A stretch of DNA of 64,000 nt, taken from NCBI RefSeq assembly GCF_001644665.1, contig NZ_CP011393.1, forward strand, positions 1,997,853-2,061,852, given 5' to 3'. A model generated the notes under the pieces. That model was not told where the DNA came from. It was given only the letters and a program-made list of their open reading frames with translations, and did not search any database. The translations under genes were made by a program, and so were the position numbers. The stretch is from Fervidobacterium pennivorans (GTDB taxonomy: Bacteria; Thermotogota; Thermotogae; Thermotogales; Fervidobacteriaceae). Below, one piece after another: positions 2 to 7,156 of the stretch. Position 1 is the stretch's first letter. The number at the start of each line of letters is the position of its first letter.

Positions 2-796
2 GTTGTGAAAAACTTTGCAACAGCACGAGGCGGAGATGTCGAAGTTGTTTCAGCAGCAGGCAAAGGAATAAAATTTATCGTCCATTTCCCAATCAAGACC
101 TTCTTGGTGAGAGTTCTCGTTGTAGAAGCTGATGAATTGCGGTTCTGCATCGATTTACAAGATATATTGGAAATCGTTAGCAAAGCGGAAATCAAAGATG
201 GACAGCTCAAGCACAAAGACAAATTGTACGATATAACCTTCAGTTGTACATTGCCACGGTTCGCAATCATTACGAAGAATAACAAAGCTCTTTTAGTGAG
301 CAATTTAATAGGCATCTTCGATGGGCAGGTTTCTAATGAAAGCTATGACATGATAAAAGGTTTCGTAAAGAATATCTTTGTCTATCCTTTGCCAATAATA
401 TCACCGGAGCAATTCCTTAAACTCCAGAAACCTTCGGAAAAAGTCCGCAAAGTCTTGGTTATAGACGATTCTGTGGTAACAAGAACTATACTCGGAAAAT
501 TCTTAGTAAACTTTGGTTACACCGTTTTCGAGGCGGAAAATGGAACTGAAGGCATTGAAATATTTAAAAAGGAAAACCCGGATGTTATTGTATGCGATGT
601 TGAAATGCCTGGCATTGATGGCTTTGAAACAACAAGGAGAATAAGGGAGCTAAACAAGAACGTGCCGATAATAATCTTTAGCACTCTTACAAGTGAACAA
701 CTCTCTAAGGGATTAGAAGTCGGAGCGAACGCGTACCTTTCAAAAGATGAACCACCTGAAAGATTGGTACGTTTGATTGAAAGGTTTATCCAGTAA
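2..796 (+). CDS. CheA-type histidine kinase, C-terminal part, with CheW-like and receiver domains (5' truncated)
   Basis: The reading frame is open to the left edge, so only the end of the protein is visible. The first ~30 residues look like the last piece of a CheA ATPase domain (glycine-rich GKG and a hydrophobic strand ending VHFP). Residues ~33-140 fit the CheW-like regulatory domain that docks CheW and receptors. Residues ~147-263 are a receiver domain with the acidic pair in VLVIDDS, the phospho-acceptor Asp in VIVCDVEMPG and the conserved Lys in LSKDE. A CheA fused to its own receiver is typical of chemosensory systems that do not control flagella, or that use the receiver as a phosphate sink. 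It leads a run of same-strand signalling genes. The apparent GTG at position 5 is probably an internal codon. Confidence 0.85.
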   Translation, partial: VVKNFATARGGDVEVVSAAGKGIKFIVHFPIKTFLVRVLVVEADELRFCIDLQDILEIVSKAEIKDGQLKHKDKLYDITFSCTLPRFAIITKNNKALLVSNLIGIFDGQVSNESYDMIKGFVKNIFVYPLPIISPEQFLKLQKPSEKVRKVLVIDDSVVTRTILGKFLVNFGYTVFEAENGTEGIEIFKKENPDVIVCDVEMPGIDGFETTRRIRELNKNVPIIIFSTLTSEQLSKGLEVGANAYLSKDEPPERLVRLIERFIQ

Positions 797-956
797 TGTT
801 TAAAACTGTGAGAAATTGTTGGGAAAAGGAAAATGTGAGAATTTCCGCGTGCAAGTTCTTGAACATCGTAGATTCTCAGCAAAGGACTAAAATAACTAAT
901 ATGAATTACCTTTGCGATATCTTAAATCATAATTCGTTCAATCAGGAGAATGTTAT

Positions 957-1550
957 ATGGCAAATGCAAAGAAAGTAATTATCGTCGGTTCAGCAGGAAG
1001 TCCTTCGCAAGCTGTTGAGATACTAAAACTCGGTGAGAAATTGAATTTTCCTGTCATAGTTAATATTCATTTTACAAGTAGTGCAATAGAAACTTTTGCA
1101 CAGCATATACGTTCTGAAACAAATCAAAAAGTCACAATAGTAAAAGGACCTGTTTTCTTAGAACCTGGAGTATACATACCAGAAGGCGGAAAAGACTTGA
1201 TTTTTCTAGGCAGTAATGCCGTTACTGTTGTTGATGAAACCACTTCAAAAGAAACGATTCATCCTTCCATATCTATTCTGTTCAGTTCAATGAAGAAATT
1301 CGCCAATAAAGATTTCGTAGTAATAGTCCTTGGCGGGTTAGGGGGCGATGGTGCAGAACATGTTAGTGAGCTGAAAAAGAAAGGTGTCTATTTCATAATA
1401 GAAAGAACCCCGAAATTTCCATACCTCCCTGAAAATATTGCTAAACAACTTGGAGAGCGGTACGAAAAACTGGAGATTGAAAAAATAAGGGAAATGCTTA
1501 AAATGTTTAACGCTGAGGCAAAACAACAAACAAAAGACACCAACGCATGA
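957..1550 (+). CDS. cheB: CheB-type receptor methylesterase, catalytic domain only
   Basis: This 197-residue protein matches the C-terminal methylesterase domain of CheB, which removes methyl groups from (or deamidates) glutamyl sites on chemoreceptors. A catalytic-type Ser lies in the N-terminal GSAGS motif, the His in VNIHF near residue 38, and the Asp in the late GGLGGDGA motif near residue 130. The usual N-terminal receiver is missing, so activity cannot be switched by phosphorylation of its own receiver. The ATG follows a CAGGAG ribosome site. It lies 160 bases after the CheA-receiver gene and before a second receiver protein, which suggests one adaptation module. The exact catalytic Ser is inferred from the family. 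Confidence 0.8.
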   Translation: MANAKKVIIVGSAGSPSQAVEILKLGEKLNFPVIVNIHFTSSAIETFAQHIRSETNQKVTIVKGPVFLEPGVYIPEGGKDLIFLGSNAVTVVDETTSKETIHPSISILFSSMKKFANKDFVVIVLGGLGGDGAEHVSELKKKGVYFIIERTPKFPYLPENIAKQLGERYEKLEIEKIREMLKMFNAEAKQQTKDTNA

Positions 1551-1587
1551 AAAGTTAAAAAAATAAGGGTAAAGGTGGTGACAATAA

Positions 1588-2898
1588 GTGAAAAAGGTTC
1601 TTGTTGTTGATGATTCTGCAGTTTGGAGAACCTATTTACAAAACCTTCTGGAAATTCACGGATACGCCGTTGAGGTTGCGAAAGACGGACTTGAAGGACT
1701 TAATAGATTTTTTTCTTTCCTTCCTGATACTGTTATCGTAGATTACGTGATGCCAAAATTAAATGGTGTCCATTTCACACGATTTATCAGGAGCTTTAGT
1801 ACATTTAAAAATGTTGGAATAATGATTCTCACAGGCGCTGAAGAAACTATAAACCCATTCTGGGCAAAGAAAAGTGGTGCTAACGCTTTTTTGAAAAAGA
1901 CAGCATCACAAAGTGAAATAGAAAGAACGGTTTTAGAATTCGTAGCTAAACCATTCTCCATGGAATGGTCGAGAGAGCTTTACGCACTTCACATTGAGCC
2001 ATTCGGAGAACTTGTTGATATACTTGAAGAAAGCCTTCGTGATTCAACTATAACAAAAGAAATTCTTCAACTTTCCGAGTACATTTACGACGAAAAACTG
2101 GTAATGAAGAAAATATACAACCTATTCACGGAGCTGTTTGAGTTTGATAACTTTTACGCTTGCGTCTCGACATACTCACATGCACGAGTTTATGCATTTG
2201 GAAACAAAGAGCTCTCAAATCCCAATTCGGTTTTCGAGAAAGCGAAAGAAATTAGATTCTTTAGTTATTTTAAATACATTGATGTTTACTATGAAGATAC
2301 GGAACGAAAGATAGAAAATGCTATAGGGGAAGTGATAACAAGAAAAGAAGAACCTATAGGTTTCATAATCATAGAAAATCCAAAAGTTCCAGAGGTTGCC
2401 GAAAGAATTCTTGCTCTTGCAAATTACAGTATCTCGCTGATTTTTGACCTGATAAACTATCATAAGCTACTCGGAAGTCAGAAAGAATTAGAAGAGATAA
2501 CCGGGGCTTACGACAGGCATGCGATAACTGGAAAAATAGTAAATTTAATCGATTTCTCAAAACGGAACCAACTGCCGCTTTCATTTGTCAGTATTAAGTT
2601 GCTAAACTTAAGAAAACTCTACACTTCGAAAGGCACAGATTACACAAACCAACTGCTGAGAACCTTCGTCAAATTCCTTGAAGAGCAACTTTCCGATACT
2701 ATCGCGAGGATAGAATTAGGCAAGTTCTTGGCTGTAATACTTGGAAAAAACGTAACACCAGTTCAAAAACAGTTAGAGTCATTCCAAATTATCTTTAATG
2801 AATCTGAAGAATATAAGAACTTAAAAGAAATTGAAGTGGAAACGAACCTATTTGTTTGGAATGGCGAAAGTGTCGGTGAAATCCTTGAGAAGTTGTAG
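1588..2898 (+). CDS. Response regulator with receiver domain and degenerate GGDEF-like C-terminus
   Basis: Residues 1-120 form a receiver: acidic pair in VLVVDDS, phospho-acceptor Asp in VIVDYVMP, conserved Thr in ILTGAEE and Lys in FLKKTA. The middle (~170-290) is an uncharacterised, perhaps GAF-like sensor segment. The last ~140 residues have the spacing of a GGDEF fold (EITGAYDRH start, a central strand SFVSIK), but the signature is replaced by ELGKF and the metal-binding residues are gone, so no cyclase activity is expected. It may bind nucleotide or act as an output adaptor. GTG start preceded by AAAGGTGGTG. It lies 37 bases after cheB in the same direction. Confidence 0.8.
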   Translation: MKKVLVVDDSAVWRTYLQNLLEIHGYAVEVAKDGLEGLNRFFSFLPDTVIVDYVMPKLNGVHFTRFIRSFSTFKNVGIMILTGAEETINPFWAKKSGANAFLKKTASQSEIERTVLEFVAKPFSMEWSRELYALHIEPFGELVDILEESLRDSTITKEILQLSEYIYDEKLVMKKIYNLFTELFEFDNFYACVSTYSHARVYAFGNKELSNPNSVFEKAKEIRFFSYFKYIDVYYEDTERKIENAIGEVITRKEEPIGFIIIENPKVPEVAERILALANYSISLIFDLINYHKLLGSQKELEEITGAYDRHAITGKIVNLIDFSKRNQLPLSFVSIKLLNLRKLYTSKGTDYTNQLLRTFVKFLEEQLSDTIARIELGKFLAVILGKNVTPVQKQLESFQIIFNESEEYKNLKEIEVETNLFVWNGESVGEILEKL

Positions 2899-2942
2899 CA
2901 AAAAATAGACAGGTTATTAAACTTACAAGGAGGGAACAGAGA

Positions 2943-4208
2943 ATGAAGAAGGTATGGCGGCTTTCTTGGAGTTACGCACTGACCGTTTCACTGTTCGTTA
3001 TAGCATGGAGTAGTATATTGCTTACGATAATTATTCCACGTGTCAACAAAATAGTCGAACAAGTGAGCACGAAATCCTTCTTGCAAGAAGTCGTTTCAAT
3101 CACAAATGCAGGCGTCTCACAAAAAGTCTTTGAAAGAGAACCAACTTTTGGTTATTACTATCTCATCGATGAAAACGGCATAACTGTTGAACACACAGAT
3201 AAGCAAAAGGTAGGCTTGGATGTTAGGAAAGCTGTTCCTGGTCTGTTTGAGTATATACAGTCAAATAAGGTTGGAATCTACTCGTACACATACCAAGGTG
3301 TTAAACGATACGTCGCTTTTGCTTTCGATGGAAAATACTATTTAGCTCATGCTGCTCGCCATGATGAACTATATGGTGAACTTGCAAGTTTCCTTTCAAG
3401 CTTTTTCAAATTCATTGTTCCAATACTTATCGTACTTACCTTTGTAGCTGGCTTTTTCGTTGCGGAATTACTTCTGAAAAGGCAGAGGTATCAACTTCAA
3501 GTTTCAAACAACCTTGTGAGAAATATCTCAGAAAATATCATTCATACATTCTCGTCTGTTTCTGAAATCAAGGCTATGGCTGAAAACACAGAAGGAGCAG
3601 CAACTCAGTTAGACCGTTCTCTTGAAGAGTTTGCCGCATATTTAGAAGAAAGTCGTGCAGAAACCGAGACAACAATCAACGGTCTCAACGAGTTCACCAA
3701 CACCATCGAACAGATTACCGAATACACTTCAAAACTCGCTATGCTTACGGAATCTCTTGGAAAACTAACCGATAAGATAACAGACATTTCAGATAGTATA
3801 ACCGTTTTAGCAATAAACGTATCTATCGAAACAAGCAAACAGAACATTGATAGAGAAGGTTTATCAAGGATTGCTGAGATGATTATGGAACTATCCAATT
3901 CTGCACGCAATCTTGCAAAAGAGGGTAGACAGTCACTTGAAAACGTAGAAAACATCGTTACATCAACAACGCTTATAACAGAAAAAATCACCAAAAGACT
4001 AACTTCAGTAAGAGAATCACTCAATACTATCCTGCAAGTATCACAAGCATCTACAACGAACGTTGAGAAAATAGTGAACGCATCTAGGACTGCACACGAA
4101 GCAGTTGAGGAGTTGTACTCTGGAATAGAACAACTGGAAGAAGCAATCTCCAACATAAAAGATGAAATTGAAAGATTCAAAGCAGAACTGGAAAGGTTTG
4201 TTATTTAA
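2943..4208 (+). CDS. Divergent methyl-accepting chemotaxis receptor with single Cache-like sensor
   Basis: The 421-residue protein has a membrane helix at ~11-31, an extracytoplasmic domain at ~35-150 with a Cache-like strand pattern (YYYLIDENG then GLDV), a second membrane helix at ~155-177, and a long cytoplasmic coiled coil. The chemoreceptor hairpin tip is recognisable at ~279-322 by heptad spacing and by the Asn and Glu in INVSIE, but the nearly invariant [18 protein letters not shown] is heavily altered, including loss of its Arg. It should form a receptor rod but probably docks to a non-standard CheA/CheW pair, plausibly the hybrid CheA encoded upstream. Strong ribosome site AAGGAGGG; 44 bases after the receiver protein. 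Confidence 0.82.
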   Translation: MKKVWRLSWSYALTVSLFVIAWSSILLTIIIPRVNKIVEQVSTKSFLQEVVSITNAGVSQKVFEREPTFGYYYLIDENGITVEHTDKQKVGLDVRKAVPGLFEYIQSNKVGIYSYTYQGVKRYVAFAFDGKYYLAHAARHDELYGELASFLSSFFKFIVPILIVLTFVAGFFVAELLLKRQRYQLQVSNNLVRNISENIIHTFSSVSEIKAMAENTEGAATQLDRSLEEFAAYLEESRAETETTINGLNEFTNTIEQITEYTSKLAMLTESLGKLTDKITDISDSITVLAINVSIETSKQNIDREGLSRIAEMIMELSNSARNLAKEGRQSLENVENIVTSTTLITEKITKRLTSVRESLNTILQVSQASTTNVEKIVNASRTAHEAVEELYSGIEQLEEAISNIKDEIERFKAELERFVI

Positions 4209-4229
4209 TTATTTTTAGGGGGAAATTGA

Positions 4230-4871
4230 ATGGACGAACAAGCAAAAAACATGGAGCATCACGGTGAATATGTGTTCTTCGAATATTCTCCAGTTTTCAG
4301 ACGCATGGCTATTCTCCAAGCTTTGTCAGAAGGTATAACAAAACATTCTGAATTAGCCTTGAAATCAGGGATCGTGCCTTCACTTGTGAATAAATACTTG
4401 AAGGACTTCGAGAAAGAAGGGTTAGTCGAAAAGGTAAATAGAACCTACAAATTAACTAACACAGGACTTATTCGGTTAAACTATCTGAGACTGGGTTACC
4501 TATCAGAAATTGCACAGATGTATAAGAATATCGAACTCAAGTTCGCAGACATCTTCCTGAAAATCGCTGGCAAAAGGGACCTATGTATCTACGGAGCAGG
4601 TGTTGTGGGCAAATTGTTGGTGCATTTAATTTCAACAAGGCAATCCCACAACATCGTTGCCTTCCTGGATGAGGATGAAAAAAAGATTGGAACCAAGATT
4701 GAGGGCATAGTTGTTTTACCTCTTGAAACAAGGATTTCAGCCGATGCTTACCTTGTTGCTTCATTCAAAAATGGCGAAATAATGGCAAAAAAGCTACTTG
4801 AACGTGGTTATAGAAACGTTTACACCATTGAATTTTCAAAAGACAAGTTAAAACTTGTGTGGAAAGGGTAA
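4230..4871 (+). CDS. Winged-helix regulator fused to a Rossmann-like nucleotide-binding domain
   Basis: Residues ~20-90 are a winged helix-turn-helix of MarR/ArsR style: a helix starting RMAILQALSEG, a recognition region around SLVNKYLKDFEKEGLV and a wing ending YKLTNTG. Residues ~113-205 form a Rossmann-type beta-alpha-beta unit with the glycine motif IYGAGVVGKLL and an acidic residue at the end of the next strand (AFLDED), as in sugar-nucleotide or CoA-binding folds. This resembles a ligand-sensing transcription factor that reads a dinucleotide or sugar nucleotide, but the ligand is unknown. It starts 21 bases after the receptor gene with AGGGGGAAA as ribosome site, so it is probably in the same operon. 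Confidence 0.7.
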   Translation: MDEQAKNMEHHGEYVFFEYSPVFRRMAILQALSEGITKHSELALKSGIVPSLVNKYLKDFEKEGLVEKVNRTYKLTNTGLIRLNYLRLGYLSEIAQMYKNIELKFADIFLKIAGKRDLCIYGAGVVGKLLVHLISTRQSHNIVAFLDEDEKKIGTKIEGIVVLPLETRISADAYLVASFKNGEIMAKKLLERGYRNVYTIEFSKDKLKLVWKG

Positions 4872-4877
4872 TGCAAG

Positions 4878-6209
4878 ATGGAAGAAAAAGAATACTTTGA
4901 CAAACTTTTCTCAGGCATTCAGGATGATATAAAAGAGGAATTTTTAACGATAAAGCGACTGCACGAAGAAAATTTCTCAGAATACAAAGAGCAATTCACT
5001 GAAGTATTTTGGAAAGTTTACGAAGCCATTGCGCAGAAATTAGAAGAAACATCTCATATCGAACAAAAGCTTTTCATACGCCTTGGATTAGTTGACCCAA
5101 GGTATCTAACCAGAGAAGACTTAGAAAGAATCAAAGAATGCATATCATCAGCTTCAGACGACACCTTTTACTACGTTGATGAATGGCTAATTTCGGCGAA
5201 AAGCGGAAAAATACCACCATCAACCTTCGAAGAAGTCATTCAGGACCAGCAACAAGAAAAGCGCACATTCGATTACACATGGATTGAGAAAGAATACGAG
5301 AGAAAACTTTTTGAAAGGAGCATAGAGGAAGAAAAACTGAGGGACCTTGTGAAAGGTGTGCAAGGCAAAGGTCCATACACAAAGGGTGTGTATACCATAT
5401 TTGATGAGATAATTAAAAGTATTGGGAAACTCAAAAAACTGGATAACGATATAAAAACTTTGAAAGAAACCCTCGACAAAGCAAAAGAACAAACTTCATC
5501 AATTCAGCAAATACCACAAACATCGAAAGATACAACCACTTCTCTTTTTACCGAACCACAAGTAATCAGGCAGATGGTTAAAAAGGCTATTGGGAAATTG
5601 GGCATCCAATATCCAGCACTCACGACAAATTACCTAAGGGAAGTCAATTCGATATTTTCAAAGAAATACTCACTAAAACTTTTCGAGGAATTTAAATTAC
5701 TTGACCCAACAACATTGAAAAGAACGATAAAAGGAACGGAAGTTTACATGCCACCTTATGTTATTTTGGTGCCAGGTTACGGAGAAAATGGTTTTTGCTG
5801 GGAACCTATTGAAGGGGTAAATATCTACGGACGAGGTCGAATTGTCGTTCCAATCTTCTCCAGAAAAGGCACAGACCCGTTTTTCCAGGCATTCGGAGAA
5901 TACAGATGGAAATTAGAAAAAGAACTTTCGTTCGGCAGATGGATGGAAGAAGGTTTAACAGGCGAATACTACCAATACCTTCAAGAAAACAAACTGAAAG
6001 GTCAACCAGCTGAATACTTCATTAAGGATTACATAATGTGGATTTCAAAAGAATCAAACGGTATACAGAAACTCGACAAACCAGTGCGTGAAATATTCTG
6101 GCGCTACTTGCCTTTTGATGAATCCGTGAAAGAAAAACTATCAAAAGTAAGCTATGTTTACCAACAACTCTGGGAAAGGGATTTGAGAAAGAGGCAAAAA
6201 GATAAATGA
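4878..6209 (+). CDS. Hypothetical protein, coiled-coil N-terminal half and conserved-looking C-terminal domain
   Basis: I do not recognise this 443-residue protein. It has no signal peptide or membrane segment. The N-terminal half is highly charged and helical, with a probable coiled coil around residues 150-215. From ~280 onward the sequence becomes compact and aromatic, with VILVPGYGENGFCWEP near 295 and several Trp, which looks like a folded globular domain. No metalloprotease HExxH, nucleotide-binding loop or other catalytic motif is visible. It starts six bases after the winged-helix gene (ribosome site AAAGGG), so it is almost certainly co-transcribed with the chemosensory genes. It may be an output or scaffold protein of that pathway; this is inference from position only. 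Confidence 0.75.
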   Translation: MEEKEYFDKLFSGIQDDIKEEFLTIKRLHEENFSEYKEQFTEVFWKVYEAIAQKLEETSHIEQKLFIRLGLVDPRYLTREDLERIKECISSASDDTFYYVDEWLISAKSGKIPPSTFEEVIQDQQQEKRTFDYTWIEKEYERKLFERSIEEEKLRDLVKGVQGKGPYTKGVYTIFDEIIKSIGKLKKLDNDIKTLKETLDKAKEQTSSIQQIPQTSKDTTTSLFTEPQVIRQMVKKAIGKLGIQYPALTTNYLREVNSIFSKKYSLKLFEEFKLLDPTTLKRTIKGTEVYMPPYVILVPGYGENGFCWEPIEGVNIYGRGRIVVPIFSRKGTDPFFQAFGEYRWKLEKELSFGRWMEEGLTGEYYQYLQENKLKGQPAEYFIKDYIMWISKESNGIQKLDKPVREIFWRYLPFDESVKEKLSKVSYVYQQLWERDLRKRQKDK

Positions 6210-6268: not shown

Positions 6269-7156
6269 GTGGCAAAGAACAAACTTTTTAGGTTTGTAGT
6301 TATTTTTGTTATCCTGCTGGCTGTCGTTTCTGCTTTGTTTTTATTTCTTAGAGAGGTTTTCTCAGGAAGACTGATTGTCAGAGACTATATCTTCCAAATT
6401 GGAAACTTTCGGCTTCGATGGTATAGTGTATGCATTGCTACTGGGATATTCACTGGCTACTTCCTTGCCAGAAGAAGACTAAAGAACTACCCTATAACCC
6501 CTGAAGACCTCGACGAGGGTTTATTCTGGGGGGTTATATTTGGAATCCTCGGAGCAAGGGTATACTATGTTGCTTTTAACTGGTCGTATTACTCGAGATA
6601 TCCTTCTGAGATATGGAAGATTTGGCATGGTGGTCTTGCGATACATGGAGCTTTTTTTGCTGCACTAATAACGATATACGTTTATTCAAAGTTGAAAAAA
6701 AGATTCAACTTTGTTCACGCTGCTGACCTTTTCACCTCCGTTCTCCCAGTTGCCCAAGCAATCGGAAGATGGGGAAATTTCTTCAATTACGAAGCCTATG
6801 GAAGACCTACTAACCTACCGTGGGGAATGTACGTTCCACCAGAAAAGAGAGTTCCTGGATTTGATATGAATACACATTTTCATCCCACATTCCTTTACGA
6901 AAGCCTTTGGGATTTGGCGGTCTTTGTAATACTATACTTCATCGTGGAAAAAAGAAAAAAACAGTTCGGAGAAACAACAGCACTTTACTTAGTTCTATAC
7001 TCCATTGGGAGATTTTGGATTGAGGGTCTAAGACTTGATAGCTTAATGGCAGGCAATCTTAGGGCGGCACAGATAGTGAGTATGATTCTTATAATCTTCG
7101 GTGCCTCGTGGTATGCATACCTAATGGGAAAAAATAAGAACGATGTTCAAAAATAA
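6269..7156 (+). CDS. lgt: Prolipoprotein diacylglyceryl transferase
   Basis: Lgt transfers diacylglycerol from phosphatidylglycerol to the lipobox cysteine of prolipoproteins in the cytoplasmic membrane. The 295-residue protein has about seven membrane segments. Family motifs are visible: the HGGLAIHGAF loop, the signature around GRWGNFFNYEAYGRP, and a late GRFWIEGLRLDSL segment with a conserved arginine. The GTG start follows GGGGGAG. This enzyme acts before LspA, encoded at the right end of the window. Likely clients here include the two lipobox-bearing subtilisins and their two companion lipoproteins. It is the last gene of the leftmost same-strand run. Confidence 0.95.
   Translation: MAKNKLFRFVVIFVILLAVVSALFLFLREVFSGRLIVRDYIFQIGNFRLRWYSVCIATGIFTGYFLARRRLKNYPITPEDLDEGLFWGVIFGILGARVYYVAFNWSYYSRYPSEIWKIWHGGLAIHGAFFAALITIYVYSKLKKRFNFVHAADLFTSVLPVAQAIGRWGNFFNYEAYGRPTNLPWGMYVPPEKRVPGFDMNTHFHPTFLYESLWDLAVFVILYFIVEKRKKQFGETTALYLVLYSIGRFWIEGLRLDSLMAGNLRAAQIVSMILIIFGASWYAYLMGKNKNDVQK

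Follow-up and report, generated by a model that had tools for sequence, protein, structure and literature searches.

The window analysed here is a stretch of 64,000 nucleotides (C1:1997853-2061852) of the complete 2.06 Mb genome of Fervidobacterium pennivorans, and it opens within a cluster of chemosensory genes. A previous reading of the letters alone (the sequence-only reading) had picked out six closely spaced genes on one strand, and a check of open reading frames (ORFs) against Pfam found all six where they had been placed, with the domains that had been described: a CheA fused to its own receiver (REC), a CheB, a REC-GGDEF protein, a membrane receptor, a winged-helix/Rossmann-like protein (wHTH) and a protein of 443 amino acids (ORF443). 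Within the window the genes are separated by 6-160 nt. The cluster starts about 3.0 kb to the left of the window (L003:14873, corresponding to C1:1994872 in the genome), and this left flank adds a CheR with a TPR-like tail, an adaptor of 258 residues and residues 1-321 of CheA (Table 1).

A phylum-wide search of 103 genomes, combined with a reading of the flanking genes, identified a conserved order CheR - adaptor - CheA-REC - CheB - REC-GGDEF - receptor. It was seen in family f1 (genera g1 and g2, and g3, where the REC-GGDEF gene is missing from two genomes, G077 and G079), in genus g32 of family f10, and in genome G002, whose contig ends before CheR; the genera g10, g11 and g14 of family f3 keep the first five genes. 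We take f1 to be of the Fervidobacterium/Thermosipho type and f10 of the Marinitoga type, and f3 is presumably Pseudothermotoga-like, judging by kinship. Named records confirm that two of the copies (L097 and L098) belong to Thermotogota. The genes flanking the unit, among those inspected by eye, are unrelated housekeeping genes. All six frames are open and the signalling residues intact in the Fervidobacterium-type genomes read across, and the ratio of non-synonymous to synonymous substitution rates (dN/dS) of the pathway genes is 0.03-0.18 where measurable. Four of the genes first picked out, encoding CheA, CheB, REC-GGDEF and the receptor, are members of a conserved system, while wHTH and ORF443 fall outside it.

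The data support a pathway separate from flagellar chemotaxis, as the sequence-only reading had proposed, because a canonical CheA-CheW-CheY set and ordinary receptors are located elsewhere. The canonical set, and with it a second CheA, lies at C1:884-887 kb beside a gene reading as fliP; position 1,838 kb holds a canonical CheB with receiver, and 1,764 kb another CheW. The sequence-only reading would have given way to a main chemotaxis system had ordinary flagellar genes filled the left flank and had the cluster's CheA been the sole kinase of the genome, which is not the case. Profiles of the dimerisation domain and of CheW matched only the canonical copies in this genome. Seven other receptors exceed the cut-off for methyl-accepting chemotaxis proteins (MCPs) and carry the usual tip or close variants of it; the tip of the cluster's receptor likewise differs from that of the canonical receptor at 25.4 kb, from which it had been set apart at the outset. 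The cluster, left flank included, contains no CheY, and its CheA family and the canonical Thermotogota CheAs form separate clades (95/84 and 100/99, respectively).

Table 1. Features of the cluster and of related loci. Positions without a prefix are those of the window.
Feature	Position	Size	Remarks
cheR, with helical, weakly TPR-like tail	L003:14873-16045	390 aa	CheR match 3e-30
CheW-fold adaptor	L003:16066-16842	258 aa	fold from predicted model
CheA-REC hybrid kinase	L003:16892 (962 bp left of window) onwards; C-terminal part 2..796 (+)	585 aa	
CheB methylesterase domain alone, without receiver	957..1550 (+)		CheB_methylest 3e-21
REC-GGDEF	1588..2898 (+)		active-looking receiver (D52), middle region, degenerate GGDEF
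Degenerate GGDEF portion, residues 301-436	2488..2898 (+)		catalytic motif and RxxD inhibitory site both lost
Membrane chemoreceptor	2943..4208 (+)		small periplasmic sensor (Cache-like by eye), private signalling hairpin
Receptor hairpin tip, about residues 280-312	3780..3878 (+)		DISDSITVLAINVSIETSKQNIDREGLSRIAEM replaces canonical tip
Winged-helix/Rossmann-like protein (wHTH)	4230..4871 (+)		neighbouring module, outside conserved pathway
ORF443	4878..6209 (+)	443 aa	neighbouring module with wHTH and lgt, outside conserved pathway
lgt-type neighbour (prolipoprotein diacylglyceryl transferase by eye)	6269..7156 (+)		bounds adjacent module
Separate-locus wHTH-ORF443-lgt module	L068:6821-10258, L069:6473-9884, L070:6134-9590, L071:6103-9493, L072:6825-10261		
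Sister CheA copies	L064:10201-11622, L066:2118-3488, L067:9747-11090, L075:6820-8190; also L159		

Kinase, adaptor and receptor

Pfam recognises the HPt, HATPase and receiver domains of the window's CheA, and neither its dimerisation nor its CheW domain. The part inside the window (residues 322-585) comprises the last portion of the ATPase domain, then a P5/CheW-like domain that has diverged, and finally the receiver (Response_reg, 2.4e-28) with its phospho-acceptor D520, while the HPt histidine H42 is located in the left flank. The same pattern holds for the family, as the HPt, HATPase and Response_reg models match all 20 members, H-kinase_dim matches none and CheW a single one (E 0.05); H42, the N and G boxes of the ATPase and D520 are invariant in the 20. 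Because a profile-profile alignment (hhalign) with the canonical Thermotogota CheAs covers P1, part of P3, P4 and P5 (3.8e-54, 441 columns), P3 and P5 are present in diverged form, and CheA structures in the PDB are also matched over P3-P5 in one stretch. Compared with the canonical CheA of Thermotoga maritima, with which it is homologous in P1, P4, P5 and part of P3, the window's CheA lacks P2, has a shorter P3 and a different P5, and carries an extra receiver, in addition to its separate position in the tree. A 2023 census defined CheA by HATPase_c together with CheW and termed these models highly sensitive (PMC10782961); applied to the present family, this rule would mostly miss it.

In the CheA tree the family forms its clade together with a sister family of about 450 residues, apart also from the best outside matches of the genome scan. 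For the same species, the branches of this family exceed the length of the canonical CheA branches several-fold. In this tree the outside rows are unlabelled best matches with long branches, many of them with a multi-HPt, Tfp-like layout, so that the phylogeny sets the family apart from the canonical kinases and does not place it among the Che classes. A search of plasmids for a Wsp reference kinase gave matches of 25-36% only. The sister CheAs are without a receiver, stand among other neighbours and are adjoined by a short CheW-like gene of 105-135 residues.

The adaptor returned no match in Pfam or NCBIfam, nor did its profile match sequences in the PDB, and 6 of the 19 members of its family reach the CheW model. 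Its predicted structure (mean predicted local distance difference test, pLDDT, 85) nevertheless has a CheW fold in the N-terminal half. A structure search with this model returned CheW or CheA-P5 for all of the top 11 entries, with a best Z-score of 12.7 over 123 residues at 2.8 Å, the next unrelated row having a Z-score of 4.0. The tail of CheR matches the TPR model weakly (residues 308-369, 5e-5) and is conserved in all lineages. CheB consists in all lineages of the methylesterase domain alone, roughly 180-200 residues long, and keeps the Ser-His-Asp triad (S12, H38 and the Asp of GGLGxDG); in an alignment of 27 sequences the His and the Asp are present throughout, and the Ser wherever the N-terminus was recovered.

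The receptor has two transmembrane segments and a signalling domain that stays below the MCP threshold (28.8 bits, cut-off 34.6). Its tip had been read as eroded, which is wrong, as it follows a different and strongly conserved consensus, DxI[ST]VLAIN[AV]SIETSKxxIDREGL in f1, with close variants in f10, G002 and f3. A profile of the signalling domain with this private tip reaches E values below 1e-20 in 27 of the 103 genomes, and these are exactly the 27 that carry the cluster, if G041 with its broken copy is included; G085, which has just a truncated CheA, lacks a private-tip receptor. Six f3 genomes have their receptor outside the cluster, and in each of them a single private receptor stands out (1e-46 to 1e-54), the next matches being at 1e-18 or weaker except for a second private copy in G097. 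The T. maritima-like genome G090, which lacks the cluster, has a best score of 1e-9. An exact test of the co-occurrence of tip and cluster gives 2e-25, a value that ignores shared ancestry and indicates scale only. Additional private-tip receptors lie inside the operon in G068 (L078:6776-8449) and G074 (L082:3138-4976), and elsewhere in the genome in G069 (G069:C1:830075-830752). Judged by these comparisons, the receptor tip, the adaptor and the coupling domains of CheA are predicted contact surfaces that have changed together.

Some features of the locus stand beside these results. The gap between cheA and cheB (window 797-956, 160 nt) contains no open frame, and in most relatives the two genes touch or lie close together. 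We considered this gap as the scar of an extra receptor, such as is present there in G068, and found no convincing remnant. Positions 780-5950 of the window are 99.3-100% identical to the relative G070, while both flanks are mostly 84-97% identical, and the tract from cheB to ORF443 looks like a recent homologous replacement. In g14, a run of genes resembling the Mnh/Mrp antiporter (by eye) directly follows the cluster (L060:13048-16866 and L061:5367-9146).

Loss of the cyclase and relation to Wsp

The GGDEF domain of the window's REC-GGDEF protein remains below the Pfam threshold (18.5 bits, cut-off 23.8), while D52 of the receiver is kept. The GGEEF motif and the upstream RxxD site are intact in f10, f3 and G002, and every f1 copy has lost both the catalytic GG[D/E]EF and RxxD. 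Among the Fervidobacterium-type genomes the receiver has a mean identity of 76% and the GGDEF part one of 36%, compared to 75% and 69% in f10, and 65% for both in f3. Nevertheless, each of the ten f1 copies read keeps an open frame, and for the pair G075/G076 dN/dS is about 0.065 in the dead GGDEF domain and 0.032 in the receiver (rough values, as dS is above 1), so that the dead domain is constrained, though less than the receiver. By these residues, the output in cyclic di-GMP (c-di-GMP) is dead in the Fervidobacterium/Thermosipho family while the pathway is kept. The messenger itself is not simply lost in the lineage, since measurements of c-di-GMP exist for Fervidobacterium islandicum (PMC13157175), and the genome holds 17 GGDEF places, ten of which have a recognisable motif, as well as two PilZ places.

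In the Wsp system, the receptor WspA is combined with the adaptors WspB and WspD, the methyltransferase WspC, the receiver-bearing CheA WspE, the receiver-bearing CheB WspF and the REC-GGDEF protein WspR (PMC9758175; PMC3447774). WspC is a CheR-TPR, a form typical of clusters with alternative cellular functions (ACF) (PMC3447774). The cluster resembles the Wsp system of Pseudomonas in that an MCP, a CheW-type adaptor, a CheR with a putative TPR tail, CheA-REC, CheB and REC-GGDEF are encoded together, most clearly in f10 and G002, and in that GGDEF is intact in its relatives. It differs in having a single adaptor of double length where Wsp has two CheWs, in a GGDEF domain that is dead in the window and in all of f1 whereas WspR is a live cyclase, and in a receptor tip and coupling domains that have diverged as a set. 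With the ACF class it shares a CheA with C-terminal receiver, a multidomain response regulator, the lack of CheY and, putatively, the CheR-TPR, but its CheA is missed by the CheW and H-kinase_dim models with which CheA is found. The gene content is Wsp-like, and in its ancestral form the pathway would work like Wsp. We refrain from classing it as Wsp, because a CheB receiver, a live GGDEF domain and two adaptors are not found in the window and the TPR is uncertain; our verdict from sequence is that it is a variant of the alternative-function chemosensory systems. Searches of the open-access literature yielded no account of such a system from Thermotogota.

Proposed mechanism and alternatives

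We consider it likely that the cluster encodes a Wsp-like pathway whose receptor-kinase complex is its own and probably insulated, and in which the dead REC-GGDEF protein most probably acts as a phosphorylation-dependent contact regulator. The receptor would sense a small extracellular cue and control the autophosphorylation of CheA, from which phosphate would pass to D52 of REC-GGDEF and to D520 of CheA's own receiver, the latter serving as a sink or brake. CheR-TPR would set the sensitivity of the receptor together with CheB, the latter not gated by phosphorylation, and the pathway would be insulated from the flagellar array. The ancestral output would have been c-di-GMP synthesis, an output that the Marinitoga- and Pseudothermotoga-like genomes would still have, and in Fervidobacterium and Thermosipho the dead protein may instead make a phosphorylation-dependent protein contact, possibly by pairing with another cyclase. 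This contact output, although favoured, is the weakest step of the mechanism. Several observations weigh against the proposal as a whole. CheB is without the receiver found in WspF, the CheA tree, built without labelled references, places the kinase in no named class, and no partner of the degenerate GGDEF domain was identified. Moreover, the Thermosipho-type genomes G077 and G079 must dispense with REC-GGDEF, as the gene is altogether missing there, and the broken copies (a multiply broken cluster in G041, L065:6839-12151; a frameshifted cheA in G080, L089:9245-11033; a lone truncated CheA in G085, L090:8959-10065) are also compatible with slow decay.

Other readings of the cluster have to be considered. 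That its parts serve the ordinary flagellar array as an accessory kinase and receptor seems most improbable: they share a cell with that array, and two flagellar rod-like genes (by eye) are encoded about 3 kb leftwards on the opposite strand, but tip, adaptor and P5 differ from their canonical counterparts as a set and co-occur exactly, CheY is missing, and the CheA clade is separate. The sequence-only reading had suggested that the pathway might end in transcription control by the winged-helix protein, perhaps together with ORF443, and the two genes are indeed on the same strand, spaced by 6-59 nt and adjacent to the cluster in all Fervidobacterium-type genomes read across; in G074 the extra private receptor even lies between ORF443 and wHTH. 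For ORF443, which occurs almost exclusively in f1, neither Pfam nor NCBIfam gave a significant match, and its predicted structure (pLDDT 81) matched only coiled coils in the PDB, over residues 127-216. In the g3 and g5 genomes, however, wHTH, an MnhB-like gene (by eye), ORF443 and lgt stand at a separate locus, on the strand opposite to a neighbouring multi-gene cluster. The module is also present in G085, where this CheA family is represented by the truncated copy alone, the pathway exists without wHTH or ORF443 in f10, f3 and G002, and wHTH has no receiver. By this distribution the two genes are members of a separate wHTH-ORF443-lgt module and not of the conserved pathway, which leaves a transcriptional output unsupported and, in our view, very unlikely.

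For the output, the main rival is slow decay, in which the enzymatic function was lost first, no output is left here and the system is now vanishing from the family. It would account for a GGDEF domain that is dead in all of f1 and for the damaged or missing genes listed above, as well as for the absence of any copy in g4. We regard it as unlikely, given the open frames and intact signalling residues of the Fervidobacterium-type genomes, the low dN/dS values, that of the dead domain among them, and the gain of extra private receptors in G068, G074 and G069. Next comes a remaining role in a c-di-GMP circuit, with the dead protein either as a receptor for c-di-GMP or GTP or as the dominant-negative partner of an active cyclase. 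Caulobacter PopA is a parallel for the receptor role. A text search of a paper on RomR for a parallel with a degenerate GGDEF domain found none. The GGDEF and PilZ places of the genome and the c-di-GMP measured in F. islandicum are consistent with such a role, and in Lysobacter WspR works through a direct partner, RpfG (PMC9758175). Against this, the usual route of c-di-GMP reception is gone because RxxD was lost along with the catalytic motif, and with no partner found we think this role rather unlikely. Whichever of these outputs holds, the identification of the pathway is unaffected.

How two homologous chemosensory arrays are kept apart in one cell is an open question, and here all contact surfaces have changed together. 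It is quite possible, although we would not yet call it probable, that the cluster represents a naturally orthogonal array, in which, within one phylum, tip, adaptor and the coupling domains of the kinase were remodelled to match one another, so that a second array is insulated from the ordinary one, and in which one family has turned a cyclase into a non-enzymatic contact protein controlled by phosphorylation. The system is naturally present in some of the 103 genomes and absent from others, and its heat-stable proteins suit reconstitution. Since the standard CheW and dimerisation models miss this CheA, domain-based censuses may undercount chemosensory systems. In Fervidobacterium and its relatives, the cluster would offer an example of a chemosensory c-di-GMP pathway that retains its machinery after the loss of the enzyme.

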